DNA of 31,085 nt from IMG/VR virus record IMGVR_UViG_3300004369_000083, positions 1 through 31,085 of that record, one strand, 5' to 3'. This document shows positions 100-10,527 of the stretch, in pieces (within the stretch, counting starts at the first letter, position 1; each line of letters starts with the position of its first letter). Origin of the DNA: a virus. Made by a program: the position numbers and the translations under genes. The notes under the pieces are model-generated. The model was not told the DNA's origin. It saw nothing but the letters and a program-made list of their open reading frames with translations, and did not search any database.

Positions 100-799
100 C
101 GTCGACGCTGTCGTCTCTGTGTTTAACAACGTCGACGTCGTCGGCGACCGCATCCTGCCGGGCGCGTTTGCCAAGTCCATCGAGCGCAAGGCGCCGAAAA
201 TTGTCTGGATGCACGACTGGGGCCTGCCGGTCGGCAAAACTATCGAAGCCCGCGAACTCAGCCCCGGCGATGCAGACCTGCCATACGAGATCGCAACACT
301 CGGGGGCCTGCGCCTAAAAATGCAGTTCAACCTTGAGACGCAACGTGGCCGCGAGGCCTTCTCGGATATCAAGGCCGGCATCATCGACGAGTTCTCCATC
401 GGTTTCTCAATCAACAAAGAACGCAATAACGCGGGTATCCGTGAGATCGAAGAGGTGACCCTCTATGAAGCCTCGCCGGTACTTTACGGGGCCAACCCAG
501 AAACGCGGCTCATCAGTGCAAAGTCTGGACTCAACGACCATATCGAGGCCATCGGGGAAGAGGTCACGGCTATGGTTACGAGGGTGAAAGAACGCGCTGC
601 CATCCGTGAGAAGGAAGGCCGGACCCTGTCGGGTAAAAACATCGAGACGCTGCGAGGCGTGGCGGATGCATTGCAGAGCGCATCTGAGACGATCTCGTCG
701 CTGCTCGACGCGGCCAGCCCACGTAAAGACATCGAAAAGGCAATGATCGAACGCGAACGACTCCGCGAATCATTACGAATCCAAGGACTAATCCAATGA
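38..799 (+). CDS. HK97-type prohead protease (peptidase S78 family)
   Basis: Predicted serine protease that matures the procapsid by cleaving the N-terminal delta/scaffold part of the capsid protein. The start chosen is ATG 38, with AAAGGA at 25-30; the frame also opens at TTG 11 without a ribosome site. The 253-residue product has family hallmarks: H59 in a WMHDW...PVGK block, S120 in DEFSIGFS, and an acidic residue in the LYEASPVLYGANPET segment (E144) as probable third catalytic residue. The tail from about 165 on is charged and helical. It lies between the portal and capsid genes, the standard place, and its stop overlaps the capsid start (ATGA). Catalytic assignment comes from family patterns, not structure. 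Confidence 0.9.
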   Translation: MTKDQRGCPLIIKGVNGDEGIVDAVVSVFNNVDVVGDRILPGAFAKSIERKAPKIVWMHDWGLPVGKTIEARELSPGDADLPYEIATLGGLRLKMQFNLETQRGREAFSDIKAGIIDEFSIGFSINKERNNAGIREIEEVTLYEASPVLYGANPETRLISAKSGLNDHIEAIGEEVTAMVTRVKERAAIREKEGRTLSGKNIETLRGVADALQSASETISSLLDAASPRKDIEKAMIERERLRESLRIQGLIQ

Positions 800-2109
800 C
801 CATCCAAACCATCAACGACGTCATCGTTGCTAAGGGTGCGGACCTCGACACGCTGTTGTCGAAGGCCGACCCGACGATGGACGACGTGCAGGCCATCAAG
901 GCCATCGGCGAGGAGCTGCAGACCCTCAAGTCGCAACTGAGCGACCTCGAGGCCGTCGAGGCTCTCCGCAAGTCGCACAATGCGACGAAGACAACCACAC
1001 AACCAGTAGCAACGAACGACGTCAAGGTATCCGTCAAGGGTCACCGCGCCGAATCGCTGCCAGCTGAGAAGAAGGCCCAGTTCATCGCTGGCCGTTTTAT
1101 TCAGGCCACGATGAAGGGCAGCGACGCTGCCAAGCAGGACCTGACGGATCTTGGCGTTGAGTACAAGACGCACGTCGAGAGCATCGATAGCGTGGGCGGT
1201 ATCCTCGTTCCTCAAGAGGTATCGACGTACATCATCGACCTCAAGGAGCAGTACGGCGCATTCCGTCGCAACGTTCGCGTCGAGAACATGACCAGCGACA
1301 CCAAGCTGGTGTATCGCATGGGCGATGACATCACCGCCTACTGGGGATCTGAGACCGGCACGCTGTCGCCGAGCGACATGACGTTTAACGGTGTAAACCT
1401 GAACGCCAAGAAGTTGTACGCTATGGCTGTCGTCTCCGACGAGCTGAACGCCGACGCGTCGATCGATCTTGGCGCTCGCTTCGCCGTTTCGGTGGCTCGC
1501 CAGTTCGCCAAGAAGGAAGACGAAGCCGGCTTTAACGGTGACGGAACGTCGACGTATGGCGGCATCACCGGCGTACGTACTGCGCTGACGAACCTCGACG
1601 GCACGGTCGCCAATATCGCCGGCCTGCAGGTCGGCTCTGGCAACCTGTACAGTGAGATCGTCCTCGCGGACTTCATCGCTACCAAGGGCAAGCTGCCCGG
1701 ATACGCCCGCGCCAACGCACGGTGGTATTTCAACAAGGCCGCCTTTGCCGCTACGGCTGAGAGCCTGACGTTGGCTGCCGGCGGTGTTCTCGCTTCCGAG
1801 ATCATCAACGGTTACACGCTGGATCGCTTCCTCGGCTTCCCTGTCGAACTGGTCGACGTGATGCCGGGCGTCGAGGCTAACTCGCAAGTATTTGCGCTGT
1901 TCGGTGATCTGTCGCTGGCCGCCACGATGGGCGACCGTCAGGCGGTAGGCATCCGCGCGGATCTGTCGGCTGGATTCACGACCGACACTATCTACATCAA
2001 GGCTACCGAGCGCGTGGACATCGTCGTCCATGACGTGGGCAACGCCTCCGGCACTGCAGCTAACCGGGTCGCCGGCCCGATCGTTGGACTTATCACGGCT
2101 GCAAGCTAA
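796..2109 (+). CDS. Major capsid protein, HK97 fold
   Basis: Main shell protein, 437 residues. About the first 110 residues are helical and charged, as expected for a delta (scaffolding) domain removed by the upstream protease. The shell domain starts near the SVGGILVPQEVS segment, which is typical of this family, and continues with AYWGSETGTLSPSD, KKLYAMAVVSDEL and the FNGDGTSTYGGITG stretch. The start ATG 796 overlaps the protease stop and has AAGGA at 783-787. There is no separate scaffold gene, which agrees with a fused delta domain. A long open frame on the opposite strand covers this gene but looks like a codon-bias shadow. Confidence 0.93.
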   Translation: MTIQTINDVIVAKGADLDTLLSKADPTMDDVQAIKAIGEELQTLKSQLSDLEAVEALRKSHNATKTTTQPVATNDVKVSVKGHRAESLPAEKKAQFIAGRFIQATMKGSDAAKQDLTDLGVEYKTHVESIDSVGGILVPQEVSTYIIDLKEQYGAFRRNVRVENMTSDTKLVYRMGDDITAYWGSETGTLSPSDMTFNGVNLNAKKLYAMAVVSDELNADASIDLGARFAVSVARQFAKKEDEAGFNGDGTSTYGGITGVRTALTNLDGTVANIAGLQVGSGNLYSEIVLADFIATKGKLPGYARANARWYFNKAAFAATAESLTLAAGGVLASEIINGYTLDRFLGFPVELVDVMPGVEANSQVFALFGDLSLAATMGDRQAVGIRADLSAGFTTDTIYIKATERVDIVVHDVGNASGTAANRVAGPIVGLITAAS

Positions 2110-2654: not shown

Positions 2655-2960
2655 ATGGCCATAACAGGCTTCACAGGTCAGGCGCTCAACACGATGCAAA
2701 CCATCGAGAACGCCTCGACCGTTCAGACTATTACACCGCCGGCGGGTACGGACTTCGTGATCCTCGAGGCGCACCAACACCCGATCCGCGTACGGCTTGA
2801 CGGTGTAAATCCTACAACGACCGTCGGGTTCCTCGTTGCCAAAGACACCCCGGTAAAAATCGACATCGGCCAAGAGGTGACGCTTAAACTGATCGCTACG
2901 TCCGACGGTCCAGCTGTCTACTGGCAAGCCTTCAAAACCAAACGGGATAACGACGTATGA
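2655..2960 (+). CDS. Small beta-rich structural protein
   Basis: A 101-residue protein of unknown family. ATG 2655 has AGGAG at 2643-2647. An in-frame opening begins at 2505, inside the previous gene, but lacks a ribosome site and would overlap it by 80 bases. The sequence alternates hydrophobic and polar residues (for example PIRVRLDGVNPTTTVGFLVA and VKIDIGQEVTLKLIA), which suggests a compact beta-sandwich or spike-like domain. It ends in ATGA overlap with the fiber gene, so the two are probably translated together. A capsid decoration or fiber-anchor role is inferred from context. Confidence 0.6.
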   Translation: MAITGFTGQALNTMQTIENASTVQTITPPAGTDFVILEAHQHPIRVRLDGVNPTTTVGFLVAKDTPVKIDIGQEVTLKLIATSDGPAVYWQAFKTKRDNDV

Positions 2961-4141
2961 TCGAGCAATTATTTCCCGGCGGTGCTGGCGGTGGCACTGT
3001 GGACAGCATCCAAGCCGGAACGGGTATCAGCGTAGACGCAACAGATGCCGCCAACCCCATCGTATCCTCAACGGTGGTCGACACGAACGACGCAGCGAAG
3101 GTATCAGCCAACGACACAACGGCCGGCTATCTCAACGGCAAGCTGGTGGCGGGGTCGAACATTACGCTCACAGAGAACAACGACGGCAGCAATGAGACGT
3201 TAACGATCGACGCGGCAGCAGGAGGCCTGACTGCGTTCGTGGAGTCGCAGAACACGGCATCACCAAATAACTTTGTTAACGCTTCACGGTTATTAGTTGA
3301 TGCCGCAAGTGCCGACGCGGACGCGGTTTTGCAGCCAAAAGGTAACGGAGCTCTATTGGCGCAATTGCCAGACAACACGGCAAGCGGTGGGGCAAAACGC
3401 GGGAACCGTTCTGTTGATTTACAATTGCAGCGAAACTTCTCTTATCAAGTAGTTTCTGGTGCAAACTCTTTCGCAGCGGGCCAAGGCAATAGCGTAACCA
3501 ATTCTTGGAGTTATGCGTCTGGCCTTAACAACACAGTCACAGGCAGTCGCGCGTTTGCTCACGGCGAGTCTAATAATGTAAGCGGATACCAAAGCTGGGC
3601 CTTTGGCGCTTCCAATCAAGTTCAAGGATGGTATTCTTTAGCCGTTGGCGAAGCCAACCAGATAGGATCTTTTGCAAGAAATTCTTTGGCAATTGGCAAT
3701 TTTGCAAATCTGACGTCATTCGGACAGATAGCTCATTGTGTAGGGCAAACACAATCGAGTAAATACTTAGCGGAGACAACCACGAGCGGCGCGGTAACGG
3801 CTCAGCTCTTAGTGGGTGGGTTTAGTAAAGCATCCGGCGGAGCAATGGTTTTACCTAATTACCGGGCCTGTGCGTATACTGTTTTTGTTACCGCATGGGA
3901 CATAAATATCAATAATCGCTACGGAGCTTGGAAAATAGAAGGTGCAATACAACAACACGCCGGAACCGTCACACTATTAGGAACGCCAACGGTTACTCAA
4001 TTAGGCAATACCTTTGCTGGTGGTAGCGTGGCGGCTGTCGCCGATAACACGTACAAAGCACTTGATATACAAGTTACAGGCGTTGCGGGCGTTTCGATTG
4101 CCTGGAACGCATGTATTGAAATTGTTAGTTATAAATGGTAA
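2957..4141 (+). CDS. Fiber/adhesin with YadA-like head repeats, probable receptor-binding protein
   Basis: A 394-residue trimeric-fiber candidate. The N-terminal third has fiber-type segments, including LVAGSNITLTENNDGSNETL (about residues 64-83). Residues about 170-260 hold four to five imperfect repeats of roughly 14 residues with the pattern S.A.G..N.V.G, as in the left-handed beta-roll of YadA-type heads. The last 130 residues form a separate, beta-rich tip domain. The gene turns visibly more AT-rich from about 3240, unlike both flanks, which suggests exchange of the binding part. Its place among head genes, far from the tail tip genes, is unusual: it could be a tail fiber or a capsid-attached fiber. 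Confidence 0.75.
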   Translation: MIEQLFPGGAGGGTVDSIQAGTGISVDATDAANPIVSSTVVDTNDAAKVSANDTTAGYLNGKLVAGSNITLTENNDGSNETLTIDAAAGGLTAFVESQNTASPNNFVNASRLLVDAASADADAVLQPKGNGALLAQLPDNTASGGAKRGNRSVDLQLQRNFSYQVVSGANSFAAGQGNSVTNSWSYASGLNNTVTGSRAFAHGESNNVSGYQSWAFGASNQVQGWYSLAVGEANQIGSFARNSLAIGNFANLTSFGQIAHCVGQTQSSKYLAETTTSGAVTAQLLVGGFSKASGGAMVLPNYRACAYTVFVTAWDININNRYGAWKIEGAIQQHAGTVTLLGTPTVTQLGNTFAGGSVAAVADNTYKALDIQVTGVAGVSIAWNACIEIVSYKW

Positions 4142-5004: not shown

Positions 5005-5961
5005 GTGAGCATGCGCCCACGGATAACCCCCGAGGAATACGAGGCGGTTCTGGCAATGCGCCAGAGCCGCCAGACGACGGCGGCGCATGACGACGCCCCA
5101 AAGCGTGGCCCGAGAGATGCGAGCCGAGGCGGTCATGTGGCGACCGCTTACAAGGCTCCGTCCGGTGGCCCCTTCGGCTCTGGCGATGTCGCGCCGTCAT
5201 CATCTGGCGGGCCGTTCGAGGCTGCCTACGACGAACGCGCCGAGGCGACGGTGATACATGCGAAGAACCTCGGAATCATCAACGACCTCCACGTACCGAT
5301 TCATGACACGCAAGCGTGCAACCTTGCCATCTCGCATTTGAAAGACGCGGGCATCGACACGCTGGTCATCAACGGCGATTTCGTAGACATGTACTCACTC
5401 ACACGCCACGGGCGAGACTCGCGGAAGTACGGCCTTCAGTATGAGCTGGCCACGGCACGCCGTGAGCTGGTGGGACTTCGTAAGTTCCTCGGCGAAAACG
5501 TCAAGATCTATTACGTCGAAGGTAATCACGAGAACTGGTGGAAACGTTACATGCGCAACGTAGCCCGTGAGCTGGACGAATACCAAGGCCTCGACGATAC
5601 GCTGATGCTGCGGGCGCTGGGGATCGAGTGGGTTGATCATGGCATGGGTCTCCGTGCTGGCAAGCTGCGCATCATCCACGGCCACGAGATCAGTGGCTCG
5701 GGCATCTACGTCGCCAAGCGGAAGCTCAACAAGGCCAAGACGAACATCATCTTCGGCCACCATCACACCAGCCAAGAGTGGACCGAGACGAACCTCGACG
5801 GCCACGAGATCGGCAGCTGGGCGATCGGCTGCCTATGCCAGCGGACGCCGGAGTGGAATCGCTTCAGCGGATACACCCTCGGTTTCGCCCGTGTGGAGTT
5901 CTCCGGCGGTGGCGACTTCGAAGTCCACAACAAACGAATCATCGACGGAGTAATTAGGTGA
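5005..5961 (+). CDS. Calcineurin-like metallophosphoesterase
   Basis: A 318-residue metal-dependent phosphoesterase. GTG 5005 has GGAG at 4993-4996; ATG 5011 is two codons on. Residues 1-80 look disordered (Gly, Ser, Pro, Arg rich). The catalytic domain then shows the ordered family motifs: D94-L-H96, GD125FVD128, GNH175E, HGH227E and GHH253H, so all expected metal ligands are present. The substrate may be a nucleic acid end, a nucleotide or a phosphoprotein and cannot be told from sequence. Its position between holin-like genes and the endolysin is odd; it may have a role in lysis or in modifying host or virion phosphates, or may simply be a cargo gene. Confidence 0.85.
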   Translation: MSMRPRITPEEYEAVLAMRQSRQTTAAHDDAPKRGPRDASRGGHVATAYKAPSGGPFGSGDVAPSSSGGPFEAAYDERAEATVIHAKNLGIINDLHVPIHDTQACNLAISHLKDAGIDTLVINGDFVDMYSLTRHGRDSRKYGLQYELATARRELVGLRKFLGENVKIYYVEGNHENWWKRYMRNVARELDEYQGLDDTLMLRALGIEWVDHGMGLRAGKLRIIHGHEISGSGIYVAKRKLNKAKTNIIFGHHHTSQEWTETNLDGHEIGSWAIGCLCQRTPEWNRFSGYTLGFARVEFSGGGDFEVHNKRIIDGVIR

Positions 5962-5965
5962 CGCA

Positions 5966-6559
5966 ATGGCTCGAACGATTAATAGCAAAAGTCCAAGGGC
6001 TGATCTGGGCGCTGGGGCAAGCGAAGCAAAAACTCGAGCGCAGGATTCCACGGTGGCCCAAGCTGTGACGACACAGCCGCACGATCTGGCGTTTTCGTGG
6101 ATGGCAATCGCCAACGACGAGATCGGCGTCAAGGAAGTACCCGGCCTGCGCCACAACCCGCGAATCGTCGAGTACCACCAGACGACGACGCTCAACGCTA
6201 CGACCGATGAAGTACCGTGGTGTTCGTCATTCGTCAACTGGGTAATGATGCAGGCCGGCTACACTGGCACGCGATCGGCTGCGGCTCGGTCGTGGGCCAA
6301 CTGGGGCATCGGCCTCGTCGACCCCGTCCCCGGCTGTATCGTCGTGATGACACGCGGCGAAGGCGGTCACGTAGGTTTCTACGTCCGCCACGATGCAGAC
6401 TATCTGTGGCTGCTCGGTGGTAATCAAAACAACGAAGTAAAAATTTCGATGTTCGACATGCGACGCCGTCGCCTCCTCGGTTACGTCCTGCCTAAACACA
6501 TGAACGACCACGACCGCGGGCTGTATGAAATGCACACACGTATCGGAGGGGTTATCTGA
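5966..6559 (+). CDS. Endolysin-type cysteine peptidase/amidase (CHAP/NlpC-like, TIGR02594-like)
   Basis: A 197-residue predicted peptidoglycan hydrolase. The first 40 residues are low-complexity. The catalytic domain carries C86 in a VPWCSSFVNWV block, H135 in GEGGHVGFYV, and an Asn at 153 in LLGGNQNN, the Cys-His-polar order seen in CHAP/NlpC-like phage enzymes. No signal peptide or separate cell-wall-binding domain is visible, so release through a holin is expected; the two small membrane proteins upstream fit that. A virion-associated lysin is an alternative because structural genes flank it. It ends at 6559, with TGATG overlap into the connector gene. Confidence 0.82.
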   Translation: MARTINSKSPRADLGAGASEAKTRAQDSTVAQAVTTQPHDLAFSWMAIANDEIGVKEVPGLRHNPRIVEYHQTTTLNATTDEVPWCSSFVNWVMMQAGYTGTRSAAARSWANWGIGLVDPVPGCIVVMTRGEGGHVGFYVRHDADYLWLLGGNQNNEVKISMFDMRRRRLLGYVLPKHMNDHDRGLYEMHTRIGGVI

Positions 6560-7622: not shown

Positions 7623-8095
7623 GTACACGCGCCGTCCACGTTCTGAACACGCTCCGCAACAAGCTAGACGACGAGGGTACGTTCAACGTCGTCAAGGTCT
7701 ACGAGACCGAGAAGTACCGAGACGCGAACAAGATCCGGGTGTACGTCAACGTCATCAGCGACGACAAGACGAACGTCGGATCTGAGACGGCCACGCTGAT
7801 CGACAAGGGCGCGGTCACCTGCGGGATCTACGCCGATTGGATAATACCAAAGGACACGACGAAAGCCGGCACGGGTGCGAGTTCCTACGGCGACGCCGTC
7901 GAGAAGATCGAGGCCGCCATCGCCGAGCTGAACGAGCAGATCAGGTACGACGGCATCGCCGCGACGACGTCACGGTTCCGGACGACGATTTACAACATCG
8001 AGGCGCTGCGGGTCTCTGGCTTTGTCGATGATCTGGAGCAAGAGGGTCGCCTGTACTACGAAGTACGCGTCCACTATGTATCGGAGGCCTTGTGA
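7619..8095 (+). CDS. Tail terminator-like protein
   Basis: A 158-residue alpha/beta protein placed directly after the gp10-like gene and before the tail tube gene, where siphoviruses encode the tail terminator (lambda gpU-like). The N-terminal helix (RAVHVLNTLRNKL), central beta strands (IRVYVNVISDDKT) and the closing LYYEVRVHYVSEAL strand fit the general fold, but no sequence motif is decisive. The functional call therefore rests mainly on gene order. ATG 7619 overlaps the previous stop; the stop overlaps the next GTG. Confidence 0.62.
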   Translation: MSTRAVHVLNTLRNKLDDEGTFNVVKVYETEKYRDANKIRVYVNVISDDKTNVGSETATLIDKGAVTCGIYADWIIPKDTTKAGTGASSYGDAVEKIEAAIAELNEQIRYDGIAATTSRFRTTIYNIEALRVSGFVDDLEQEGRLYYEVRVHYVSEAL

Positions 8096-8328
8096 GGATC
8101 TCAGAGCTGATCGGTCACCTGCACAACATCCGCCGCGAATACGGCGACCTCGAGGTGCGCGTCGATGCGGATCTCTTCCGCGACACCGCCCCGCGTGACA
8201 TCACCAGCCTGTCGGTGGCGGCGTTCTACGTCAAGCCTGTCGCCGACGTCATGATCGGCCAGTACCCAAGCGAAGGCGTCCACCGCGTCGTGATGTACAT
8301 CGGCAATGAACCGAAGCTGAAATTGTGA
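8092..8328 (+). CDS. Small conserved-type phage protein of unknown function
   Basis: A 78-residue protein starting at GTG 8092 (GTGA overlap). It begins MRISELIGHLHNIRREYGDL, a pattern common in small phage and bacterial proteins in which a helix with an L...L..I...YGDLEV block precedes short beta strands. No catalytic residues or membrane segment are visible. It lies between the tail terminator-like gene and a glycosyltransferase. The function is unknown; the gene is supported by tight coupling on both sides. Confidence 0.6.
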   Translation: MRISELIGHLHNIRREYGDLEVRVDADLFRDTAPRDITSLSVAAFYVKPVADVMIGQYPSEGVHRVVMYIGNEPKLKL

Positions 8329-9119
8329 GCAATACGGGGGAAATGATGACTGAAAAAACGAACGCACCAGATGCGACCTCACCACAGGCGACCGCGGCCA
8401 CACCGTGGATCAACCTGTCCATCTGCATCATCGCCAGACCTGACGATGCCGGCTGGATGCCGGAGCTGATGAAATCTATCCCAGCAGGTGTGGAGATCTG
8501 CGTTCTGTGGAACAAGCCGGGCGAATGCGAGGAGTACGACGACGAGGGCGTGAGCAACCTACCCAACGGGACGACCATCCGATACCATCGGTGGACGTGG
8601 ACGGGAGCGTTCTCATTCTCCGAGGCGCGTAACCTTTGCATTAGCTCTGCAAGCCGCGGGTGGATTATGTGGCTCGATGCCGACGACCGGCTCTTGCCAC
8701 ACCAGCACGCCATCCTTGCGAACCTCGACGATACCTACGGCCCCGGCATCGGCGGTCTGTTGTGCGGCGTGACGGGTGTGAACCCGCCGTCGCCGGGAAA
8801 TCCGGAGGGTCAAGTCTATGGCGTACCGCAACCGCGCATATTCCGAAACGGTCACGGCTTCCGTTTTGCTGGTCGCTGCCACGAGCAGATCCGGCCAGCG
8901 ATAGAGAGCGCGGCGTTCCGCGTAATCCCTACGAACATCATGGTCCACCATGTGGGCTATGAAGTCGAGCAGGACGTCATGATCGAGAAGATGCTGCGCA
9001 ACACGAAGCTCCTCGCGCTTCAGCTGGCCAACGACGAGTACAACCTCGCGTTCACGGCCAAGCTGTTACATCGGGATCTTCAGAATTATCTATCATTAAC
9101 TAACGCAACCCCCATTTAG
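8325..9119 (+). CDS. Family 2-like glycosyltransferase (GT-A fold)
   Basis: A 264-residue predicted nucleotide-sugar glycosyltransferase. GTG 8325 overlaps the preceding stop; ATG 8346, six bases after a G-run at 8336-8340, is an alternative start that trims a disordered leader. Motifs in order: LSICIIARPDD strand at about 31-41, GAFSFSEARN at 94-103, the metal-binding DAD at 118-120 in WIMWLDADDRL, and FRFAGRCHEQI with the H-E pair of this GT2 branch. It has no membrane anchor, so it acts in the cytoplasm. Directly upstream of the major tail protein, with another glycosyltransferase on its far side, it most likely sugars a virion protein; a host surface target is the alternative. Confidence 0.82.
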   Translation: MSNTGEMMTEKTNAPDATSPQATAATPWINLSICIIARPDDAGWMPELMKSIPAGVEICVLWNKPGECEEYDDEGVSNLPNGTTIRYHRWTWTGAFSFSEARNLCISSASRGWIMWLDADDRLLPHQHAILANLDDTYGPGIGGLLCGVTGVNPPSPGNPEGQVYGVPQPRIFRNGHGFRFAGRCHEQIRPAIESAAFRVIPTNIMVHHVGYEVEQDVMIEKMLRNTKLLALQLANDEYNLAFTAKLLHRDLQNYLSLTNATPI

Positions 9120-9128
9120 GAGAACGCT

Positions 9129-9701
9129 ATGTCTTTAGCAAATCGCGTACTCGCGGGTGGTAACTGGGTCCGGGCTTTCTCGATCACCGACGGCGCAACG
9201 CCTACGTTGGCCGGTACGGCAGCCCTGAACATCTCGGCGAATATCCTGTCGACGACGGTAACCCGTCAGGACACCGGACAGTACGACGTCAGCGTCGAAC
9301 ACGTCGAGGATACGTCGACCCTCCAGACCTACCTCGAGAACTACATCAGTGTGACCACGTCGACCGCTATCGAGGAGCTGCTGTTCGAAGACGGCACGCG
9401 GGAAGCCGCTGCCACGTCGTCGAACCAGACGCAAGTACTCATCGTGCGCGGTGGTGCTGTCGGCGGCAACGCATCCGTAAACGGTCGCAAGCTGGGCGTA
9501 TTCAACGTCCGCCTGTCGAACACCTCGGGCGGCTGGTCGCAAGCCGGCGAGACGTACAACCGAGTAAGCCTTGAGTACGAGGGATACAAGTCTTCCGGCG
9601 CCTACACAGTTCCGGCTACGTACTTCAACTCGCTGGCTGTCACGCCTACGCAGGTAGTCGTTGGAACGTCCACACCGTACGGCGTGGTCGTCTACTACTA
9701 A
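9129..9701 (+). CDS. Major tail (tube) protein
   Basis: A 190-residue, mostly beta protein, with AGGAG at 9118-9122 before ATG 9129. It is rich in Thr, Ser, Gly and Val, begins with MSLANRVLAGGNWVRAFSI, and ends in beta-type segments (TQVVVGTSTPYGVVVYY). It is the best tube candidate because of its size, its strong ribosome site, and its position before the two chaperone-position ORFs and the tape measure, the standard siphovirus order. Its many Ser and Thr residues would be possible sites for the two neighbouring glycosyltransferases, which is inference. A structured terminator-like element follows the stop. Confidence 0.75.
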   Translation: MSLANRVLAGGNWVRAFSITDGATPTLAGTAALNISANILSTTVTRQDTGQYDVSVEHVEDTSTLQTYLENYISVTTSTAIEELLFEDGTREAAATSSNQTQVLIVRGGAVGGNASVNGRKLGVFNVRLSNTSGGWSQAGETYNRVSLEYEGYKSSGAYTVPATYFNSLAVTPTQVVVGTSTPYGVVVYY

Positions 9702-9708
9702 CCACTCC

Positions 9709-9772
9709 GACCGCATCCGGTCACGGGGTCATGTGCTGCCACCCCCTCAGCCATGGCCCCACCGGTGCGGTC
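9709..9772 (+). terminator. Nested hairpin after the major tail gene (terminator or attenuator-like)
   Basis: The 100-bp gap 9702-9801 contains an outer stem pairing GACCGCATCCGGT (9709-9721) with ACCGGTGCGGTC (9761-9772), with one bulged T. Inside it an inner stem pairs GGGGT (9725-9729) with ACCCC (9741-9745), and a GCCATGGC palindrome lies at 9750-9757. The following bases AGTATTTA are only weakly U-rich. This could be a leaky terminator that lowers expression after the abundant tail protein, or an mRNA-stabilising structure. Confidence 0.6.
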
Positions 9773-9801
9773 AGTATTTAGAAACCATAGGAACGCGCCA
9801 C

Positions 9802-10527
9802 ATGCAACCTACCCTCGCTATCATCGTGCCGACGCTCGACCGGCCCCATAGGGTCGAGCCGCTGGCCATCAGCCACATCGCCTCGGAGGTCCACATCGGC
9901 GCCGGGGCTACGCTGTATTTTGTCGTCGACCCCTTCGACGAGGCGCAGCTGCTGGAGATCGACCGCGTCGTGGATAAATACCCGTCGCACTGTGCTAAGA
10001 TACTCACCAAGCACGCCGGCCCGTCATCGTTTGCGCACAAGTGCAACCTTGCAGTACGGGAAACTACTGAAGACTGGCTCCTATTCGTCGGCGACGACGT
10101 GTCGTTCTCGCGCAACTGGTTTGCGAAGGCGACGAAGGTTTCTGAGGAGCACGACGCCCGGTTCATCAGCACGAATGATATGGCCAACCCCTACGTCATG
10201 AGCGGCGTCCACGCCGTCCATCCGCTGATCCGCAGAGACTACATCGACGAGGGCCTAACGTTCGACAAGACCCCAGGCGTGGTAGCTTGTGAGGAGTACG
10301 GCCACTGGTTCGTAGATAACGAGTGGACGCGCGTCGCCAAGGCCGACGGGGAGTTCGCCTTCGCCAAGTTCGCGGTCATCAGACACCACCACCCGATATT
10401 TGACTCTAGCACCAAGTACGACGACACGTACCGCAGGGGGCAAGCCAAGCAAATCGACGATTTGAAAACATGGGAGCGCCGACTGCAGGCGTTCCAATCA
10501 ATTCACACCATACCGGATGCGCAATGA
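9802..10527 (+). CDS. Second glycosyltransferase, family 2-like
   Basis: A 241-residue protein starting at ATG 9802 with AGGAA at 9789-9793; the frame opens further upstream, but that part crosses the hairpin region. It begins with a GT-A-type strand and loop (TLAIIVPTLDRPHR), carries a CNLAVRETTEDWLLFVGDDV block with the acidic metal-site motif GDD at 97-99, and later has an acceptor-side stretch EEYGHWFVDNEW. It differs clearly from the glycosyltransferase at 8325, so the two are not a recent duplication. It acts in the cytoplasm (no membrane segment). The pair brackets the tail tube gene, pointing to virion glycosylation. The stop overlaps the next gene by ATGA. Confidence 0.78.
   Translation: MQPTLAIIVPTLDRPHRVEPLAISHIASEVHIGAGATLYFVVDPFDEAQLLEIDRVVDKYPSHCAKILTKHAGPSSFAHKCNLAVRETTEDWLLFVGDDVSFSRNWFAKATKVSEEHDARFISTNDMANPYVMSGVHAVHPLIRRDYIDEGLTFDKTPGVVACEEYGHWFVDNEWTRVAKADGEFAFAKFAVIRHHHPIFDSSTKYDDTYRRGQAKQIDDLKTWERRLQAFQSIHTIPDAQ

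Follow-up and report, generated by a model that had tools for sequence, protein, structure and literature searches.

The window analysed here, i.e., the whole stretch of 31,085 bases, is an entire IMG/VR record of an uncultured tailed phage with a G+C content of 58.8%. Its late genes follow the order capsid, connector, Neck1, terminator, a 78-amino-acid gene, a first glycosyltransferase (GT1), tube, a second glycosyltransferase (GT2), two probable chaperones, and tape measure (Table 1). Family searches returned no match for the terminator, and the Pfam search returned none for the tape measure protein. Homologues of the 78-amino-acid gene (38-58% identity) occupy the same position in the relatives of the window clade, and the gene was not found between terminator and glycosyltransferase in the distant clades examined. 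The GTG start codon of GT1 lies in a 4-base overlap (GTGA) with the stop of the preceding gene, the tube gene is preceded by a strong ribosome site (TTTAGGAG), and GT2 starts with ATG and ends in an ATGA overlap with the chaperone start; a longer GT2 frame, starting with TTG at 9661, would run into the tube gene.

Table 1. Features of the head-tail region of the window
Feature	Coordinates	Strand	Evidence and remarks
Capsid gene	796-2109		
Probable tail terminator, 158 aa	7619..8095	+	Between Neck1-like gene and GT1; syntenic homologues with 27-39% identity in relatives
Small conserved gene, 78 aa, role unassigned	8092..8328	+	Overlaps GT1 start by 4 bases
GT1, SunS/GmaR-type protein glycosyltransferase, 264 aa	8325..9119	+	PDB profile matches, TIGR04195, invariant motifs
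Major tail tube protein, 190 aa, presumed GT1 substrate	9129..9701	+	AlphaFold2 fold, gene order
GT2, second GT-A glycosyltransferase, 241 aa	9802..10527	+	PF13641, phrog_14945; lineage-specific insertion
Probable tail assembly chaperone, 169 aa	10524..11033	+	Directly after tube in relatives, homologues 31-37%; function predicted from position
Probable second tail assembly chaperone frame, 104 aa	11035..11349	+	Same-place homologues 42-49%; function predicted from position
Tape measure protein, 1276 aa	11493..15323	+	Length, position, partial homologues in relatives

Several other features were observed in the head-tail region. A 394-amino-acid protein (2957-4141) contains repeats resembling a YadA-head or ice-binding beta-roll (ANSFAAGQGNSVTNSWSYASGLNNTV...), with a weak match to PF21300; its N-terminus is 71% identical to that of its counterpart in locus L004 and the remainder is not, a pattern expected of a putative head fibre with an exchangeable tip. 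Inside the head-tail module, a metallophosphoesterase (phrog_221, E 9e-31) is followed by a CHAP/NlpC-like peptidoglycan hydrolase (5005-6559), and the pair is kept there in all clade relatives (34-75% and 43-68% identity, respectively). The 701-amino-acid open frame on the minus strand at 484-2589, antisense to the capsid gene, is probably no more than a shadow frame cast by coding sequence with a high GC3.

GT1 groups with protein glycosyltransferases

An earlier note on this DNA had assigned GT-A features to the genes at 8325 and 9802, and the acidic motifs were indeed found in both, within WIMWLDADDRL in GT1 and LLFVGDDVSF in GT2. The two enzymes had been called unrelated, which is correct in so far as they represent different subfamilies, but both belong to one GT-A superfamily; they align over only approximately 27 residues at the metal site (BLASTP E 0.03; profile-profile probability 0.6%).

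Comparison of GT1 with Pfam yielded a weak match to PF00535 (E 0.006, below the cut-off), and its sole NCBIfam match was TIGR04195, the SunS peptide S-glycosyltransferase (E 4e-9), at 35.7 bits against an equivalog cut-off of 350 bits, which marks it as a relative rather than a member. A structure model of GT1 (AlphaFold, 7 sequences) was poor (pLDDT 51) and was replaced by a sequence profile, built from 15 relatives in three clades and searched against the PDB. The best matches were GmaR (1.8e-20), SunS (1.5e-17), and 7msk (8.6e-16), after which the E-value rose to 6e-5. The four best PDB sequences, i.e., GmaR, two SunS constructs, and a Glyco_trans_2-like protein, are all peptide or protein glycosyltransferases, and they outscored the next enzymes of the GT2 superfamily (the enzyme class, distinct from the gene GT2) by 11 orders of magnitude, with alignments running through DxD, G.HE, H.GY, and K..RN. 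This grouping places GT1 among enzymes acting on proteins, and by its sequence profile GT1 belongs to the protein-modifying branch of the GT-A/GT2-type glycosyltransferases, being closer to SunS and GmaR than to other GT2-superfamily enzymes.

All 15 sequences share F98, R102-N103, W113, D118-A-D120, G183, H186-E187, H209-x-G-Y212, K222, and R225-N226. The metal-binding DxD and HE are retained down to approximately 20% identity, with DAD, DSD, and DTD variants over the wider set of sequences, and dN/dS values of 0.04-0.18 indicate strong purifying selection. A non-catalytic tail assembly factor with a retained glycosyltransferase fold would suit a small, stand-alone protein with a near-fixed place in the morphogenetic module, but the preservation of DxD, the HE pair, and other glycosyltransferase motifs across such low identity makes this role highly improbable. 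DNA glucosylation as in T4 was rejected as well, since the enzymes involved belong to other families and no gene of a hydroxymethyl-base pathway was recognised.

The gene between the glycosyltransferases

The gene at 9129-9701 matched no family in Pfam or PHROG. It was modelled with AlphaFold2 using six relatives, at a middling confidence (pLDDT 71), and upon realignment with VIA-align 2 nearly all of the top 50 PDB rows were tail-tube or Hcp entries, or else further proteins of tail and neck, including Sf11 tail (Z 9.4, the best), JBD30 (9.3), lambda gpV (8.1), and SPP1 (7.3), as well as GTA and T6SS Hcp. Foldseek again retrieved tail tubes, with a best E of only 0.006. Moreover, the gene is located between the tail terminator and the chaperones and tape measure. 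Its assignment as the tail tube is therefore sound on the basis of gene order and predicted fold, with good rather than overwhelming support, and agrees with the earlier view that the sole gene between the two glycosyltransferases encodes this protein.

The predicted tube protein has the highest Ser/Thr content (23.2%) of the 22 proteins tabulated and contains no Cys. Such richness is a weak argument for glycosylation, as Ser/Thr contents are hardly higher in tubes that are accompanied by a glycosyltransferase (18-25%) than in those that are not (17-21%). In a loose alignment, S18, T24, and T30 of the window tube were Ser or Thr in 11-13 of 13 glycosyltransferase-bearing tubes and were not in 3-4 of the 4 tubes lacking one; in the model they fall where the first strand ends and in the loop that follows. 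As a post hoc lead, these three may be regarded as candidate glycosylation positions.

Conservation of the GT1-tube pair

Scans of viral contigs were started from the tube rather than from the glycosyltransferase in order to avoid circularity, and were run with alignment queries, the single-sequence tube query having matched nothing. GT1 was located directly upstream of the tube, on the same strand, in all 42 informative contigs. Within the window clade, 25 contigs were retrieved, one of which begins within the tube and is uninformative, and the 24 with upstream DNA all carried a GT1 homologue (39-45% identical) directly upstream. The second clade (tube HMM E 1e-13) was found via GT1 and then re-scanned from its own tube, which gave 19 contigs, 18 of them informative; each of these 18 had a glycosyltransferase, 20-23% identical to GT1 of the window, directly upstream on the same strand. 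When the tubes were clustered at 95, 90, and 70% identity, 21 of 21, 16 of 16, and 7 of 7 clusters, respectively, had the upstream glycosyltransferase. Excluded from these counts was contig IMGVR_UViG_3300015375_000284 (L089/L238), in which a tube fragment (L089, 6685-6891) lies at the extreme end on the strand opposite to the glycosyltransferase, probably an assembly fold-back.

The same gene order was displayed by a third lineage (L054, 36% G+C), with 30% glycosyltransferase identity and an 11-base gene overlap; its tube was assigned by place only, being missed by a tube HMM from which it had been left out. A fourth lineage emerged when the tube profile was run over 395 genomes of a Bacteroidota-group phylum, which gave a single tube match with GT1 (E 5e-45) one base upstream. 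Among a further 391 genomes of the same class, four more distant tubes were detected, none of which had a glycosyltransferase, so that the pairing is a lineage trait rather than a rule of the tube fold, and the fold itself does not require glycosylation. In a weak tube tree, one branch (support 69/78) can have all glycosyltransferase-bearing tubes on the same side, and a single origin of the pairing is compatible with these sequence data. The adjacency of GT1 and tube is far beyond chance, and in each of four divergent phage lineages it is a fixed trait. The synteny survey proposed earlier thus had a divided outcome: GT1 keeps its place beside the tube, but the bracketing of the tube by GT2 on its other side was observed in no phage except this one.

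Those relatives for which a placement was possible lie in Bacteroidota-group genomes, and nothing in the sequence supports an actinobacterial host. A collection of phages contained no relative of either tube clade, and no cultured phage with the GT1-tube arrangement was found; its glycosyltransferase matches were weak only, comprising YolJ/SunS of SPbeta and unannotated Listeria records. Wastewater contigs filed as "Listeria phage" match GT1 at 24-26% (e.g., OR848573.1, 1905-2480), and these may represent flagellar DNA of Listeria filed as phage, as GmaR is the best solved relative.

A fixed neighbour is not necessarily a substrate. The whole operon order is conserved, and the adjacency is hence partly passive, such that GT1 could modify capsid, fibre, or tape measure, or several virion proteins, from an inherited position; relatives of GT1 in phages adjoin major head genes, and known phage glycosyltransferases encoded at a distance from the tail genes have both capsid and tail tube as substrates (PMC11600133 and PMC12363180). 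Synteny by itself would also allow the tape measure, or some other tail protein, as the target. Nevertheless, across four lineages of little remaining similarity the glycosyltransferase stays directly before the tube and nowhere else in the virion module, and a target other than the tube is considered unlikely, though deserving of some weight. In addition, two relatives (L030 and L037) have adjacent GT1 genes that are 97% identical (dS 0.3) and tubes that are 84% identical (dS 1.0), which is recombination, as read from the sequences, that exchanged the tube beside an unchanged GT1; this exchange suggests that GT1 tolerates other tubes and is perhaps not strictly tube-specific.

GT2 and its homologues

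GT2 matched PF13641 (E 1.6e-7; 32.0 bits against a curated cut-off of 27) and phrog_14945 (E 1.2e-5). The gap between tube and chaperone, which GT2 fills, measures 822 bases in the window versus 41-118 bases in 11 relatives. GT2 was absent from this gap in all relatives compared, and the whole records of 13 relatives, several of them exceeding 30 kb and possibly fragments, gave no match either; it was therefore rejected as a conserved partner of GT1. From the sequence comparison, GT2 is a later, lineage-specific insertion between tube and tail chaperone.

Homologues of GT2 are found in quite different phages, at 119 viral loci. Among 57 neighbours of such loci, counted as family matches to which a single protein may contribute more than once, 12 matched major head protein, 4 head protease, and 3 head-tail adaptor families, along with approximately 9 matches to methyltransferases, 6 to nucleotide-sugar epimerases, and approximately 11 to other glycosyltransferases. 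At L015 and L141-L143, the GT2 homologue lies between a glycosyltransferase and a methyltransferase, before the connector, and in Arthrobacter phage Mimi a 26% identical relative is grouped with two other glycosyltransferases, away from the tail genes. Judged by these settings, GT2 resembles a mobile component of cassettes for virion glycans.

The earlier note had proposed a two-step sugar chain on the tail tube or a nearby fibre; on this model, GT1 would attach an initial sugar to the tube, which GT2 would then extend. Both genes flank the tube in the same direction, GT2 is co-expressed with the tail genes because of its overlap with the chaperone start, and the company its homologues keep with glycosyltransferases and methyltransferases resembles chain-building cassettes. 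However, the absence of GT2 from the relatives implies that GT1 acts without it in at least those lineages, and GT2 homologues elsewhere adjoin head genes. With such different histories a two-step chain is unsupported and appears quite unlikely, although this one phage might have it. What stands of the proposal is the sugar on the tail: a protein-type GT1 with a near-fixed tube partner makes a glycosylated tail the best reading.

GT1 relatives in other settings

Other phage members of the GT1 family adjoin major head protein genes, and at least 20 of their 52 scanned neighbours matched head protein or head protease families, which suggests a link between the family as a whole and abundant subunits of the virion. 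At L010, L011, L013, and L101-L139, a GT1-like domain forms the end of proteins of approximately 950-1050 amino acids whose N-terminal part is GT4-like and whose genes come immediately after that of the major head protein; these constitute a candidate family of large two-domain virion glycosyltransferases tied to the capsid. Besides phages, Fibrobacterota and Ignavibacteria genomes (L056-L062) contain runs of 850-1130-amino-acid proteins bearing GT1-like domains, sometimes two in succession (L058, L059, and L062).

Glycosyltransferases of phages may also alter the host surface, in order to block superinfection or change a receptor. A gut-phage glycosyltransferase encoded between portal and capsid genes has been read as a host-capsule modifier (PMC8008677), and at one distant locus of the GT1 family (L095) the surrounding genes are metabolic. 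However, GT1 resides in a tail operon, the solved enzymes most closely related to it act on proteins, and none of the surface-sugar genes looked for (flippase, polymerase, acyltransferase) was seen around GT1 in any close relative; a location among host-surface genes, which had been put forward as evidence against virion decoration, was sought among the closest GT1 relatives without being found. A role at the host surface is consequently very unlikely. The suggested shielding from immune recognition is supported by nothing in the sequence, and shielding of the animal kind makes little sense for soil phages.

Discussion

This analysis confirmed the observation of two glycosyltransferases around a tail tube gene, although GT1 turned out to be in part more interesting than stated before, and GT2 less so. 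The sequence data argue that GT1 probably O-glycosylates the tail tube from within the tail operon, and that GT2 is a separate, recently inserted glycosyltransferase. From the sequences we infer the catalytic activity of GT1 and its substrate, linkage, donor, and benefit as follows. GT1 would act in the cytoplasm as a protein glycosyltransferase of the SunS/GmaR type, produced from the tail operon beside its substrate. Its donor would be a nucleotide-sugar of the host (probably UDP-GlcNAc or UDP-glucose), from which a single sugar would most likely pass to hydroxyl groups of Ser/Thr in freshly synthesised tube protein, either ahead of polymerisation or while it proceeds. An O-linkage is proposed because the tube has no Cys, which excludes S-glycosylation. 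The result would be a tail with a regular sugar coat, possibly to the benefit of tube stability, subunit solubility, or protection, and GT2 may extend the tube sugar or decorate another virion protein, e.g., of the head.

The closest known systems resemble the present one in part. The glycosyltransferase domain of GmaR adds N-acetylglucosamine to flagellin (PMC9638930). GmaR, the Listeria flagellin O-GlcNAc transferase (PDB 22ao), shares the DxD, HE, H.GY, and RN pattern with GT1, and its substrate is the subunit of an external tubular polymer, as is the tube that GT1 presumably modifies; in contrast to the stand-alone GT1 of a phage tail operon and its putative substrate, GmaR is chromosomal and carries extra TPR and antirepressor domains. 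In bacteriocin peptides, SunS glucosylates Cys, whereas ThuS modifies either Ser or Cys (PMC6405829). These enzymes (SPbeta prophage YolJ; PDB 7msn, 7msp, and 7msk) have the same glycosyltransferase core, and the SunS gene adjoins the gene of its peptide substrate, as GT1 adjoins its presumed one, but SunS forms S-glucosyl Cys in a secreted bacteriocin, whereas the window tube lacks Cys, and GT1 is approximately 160 residues shorter.

In the mycobacteriophages Che8, Corndog, and Myrna, phage-encoded glycosyltransferases glycosylate capsid and tail tube (Freeman et al. 2023, as cited in PMC11600133, PMC12363180, and PMC11256854). These genes are reported near the right end of the genome or between the portal and protease genes (PMC11256854 and PMC4351075), whereas GT1, a member of the GmaR/SunS branch, keeps a fixed place immediately before the tube gene across divergent phages. 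The glycosyltransferase/methyltransferase cassettes in the portal-protease interval of cluster O phages (PMC4351075) resemble the setting of the GT2 homologues at L015 and L141-L143; unlike these, GT2 of the window stands alone between tube and chaperone. No description of a glycosyltransferase fixed beside a tube was found in the literature searched, which included few subscription papers and makes this absence weak evidence; a fixed pair of a SunS/GmaR-type glycosyltransferase and a tube appears to be new, phage virion glycosylation as such being already known.

So far, virion glycosylation in phages has been regarded as an accessory feature that a few actinobacterial phages possess. A glycosyltransferase that is as fixed as terminator and chaperone, across lineages with hardly any similarity, points to modification as part of tail-making. 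We tentatively propose, as a possibility that still falls short of being probable, that tube glycosylation is a built-in step of tail assembly, for which a dedicated GmaR/SunS-type glycosyltransferase is needed to obtain a stable or functional tail, rather than an optional shield. The GT1 family provides compact, stand-alone glycosyltransferase domains with a natural, folded, self-assembling substrate, as presumed here, and glycosyltransferase and tube together form a two-gene unit small enough for work in E. coli. Finally, GT1 and its tube would link phage tails to flagellar filaments, as tubular polymers decorated by related enzymes.
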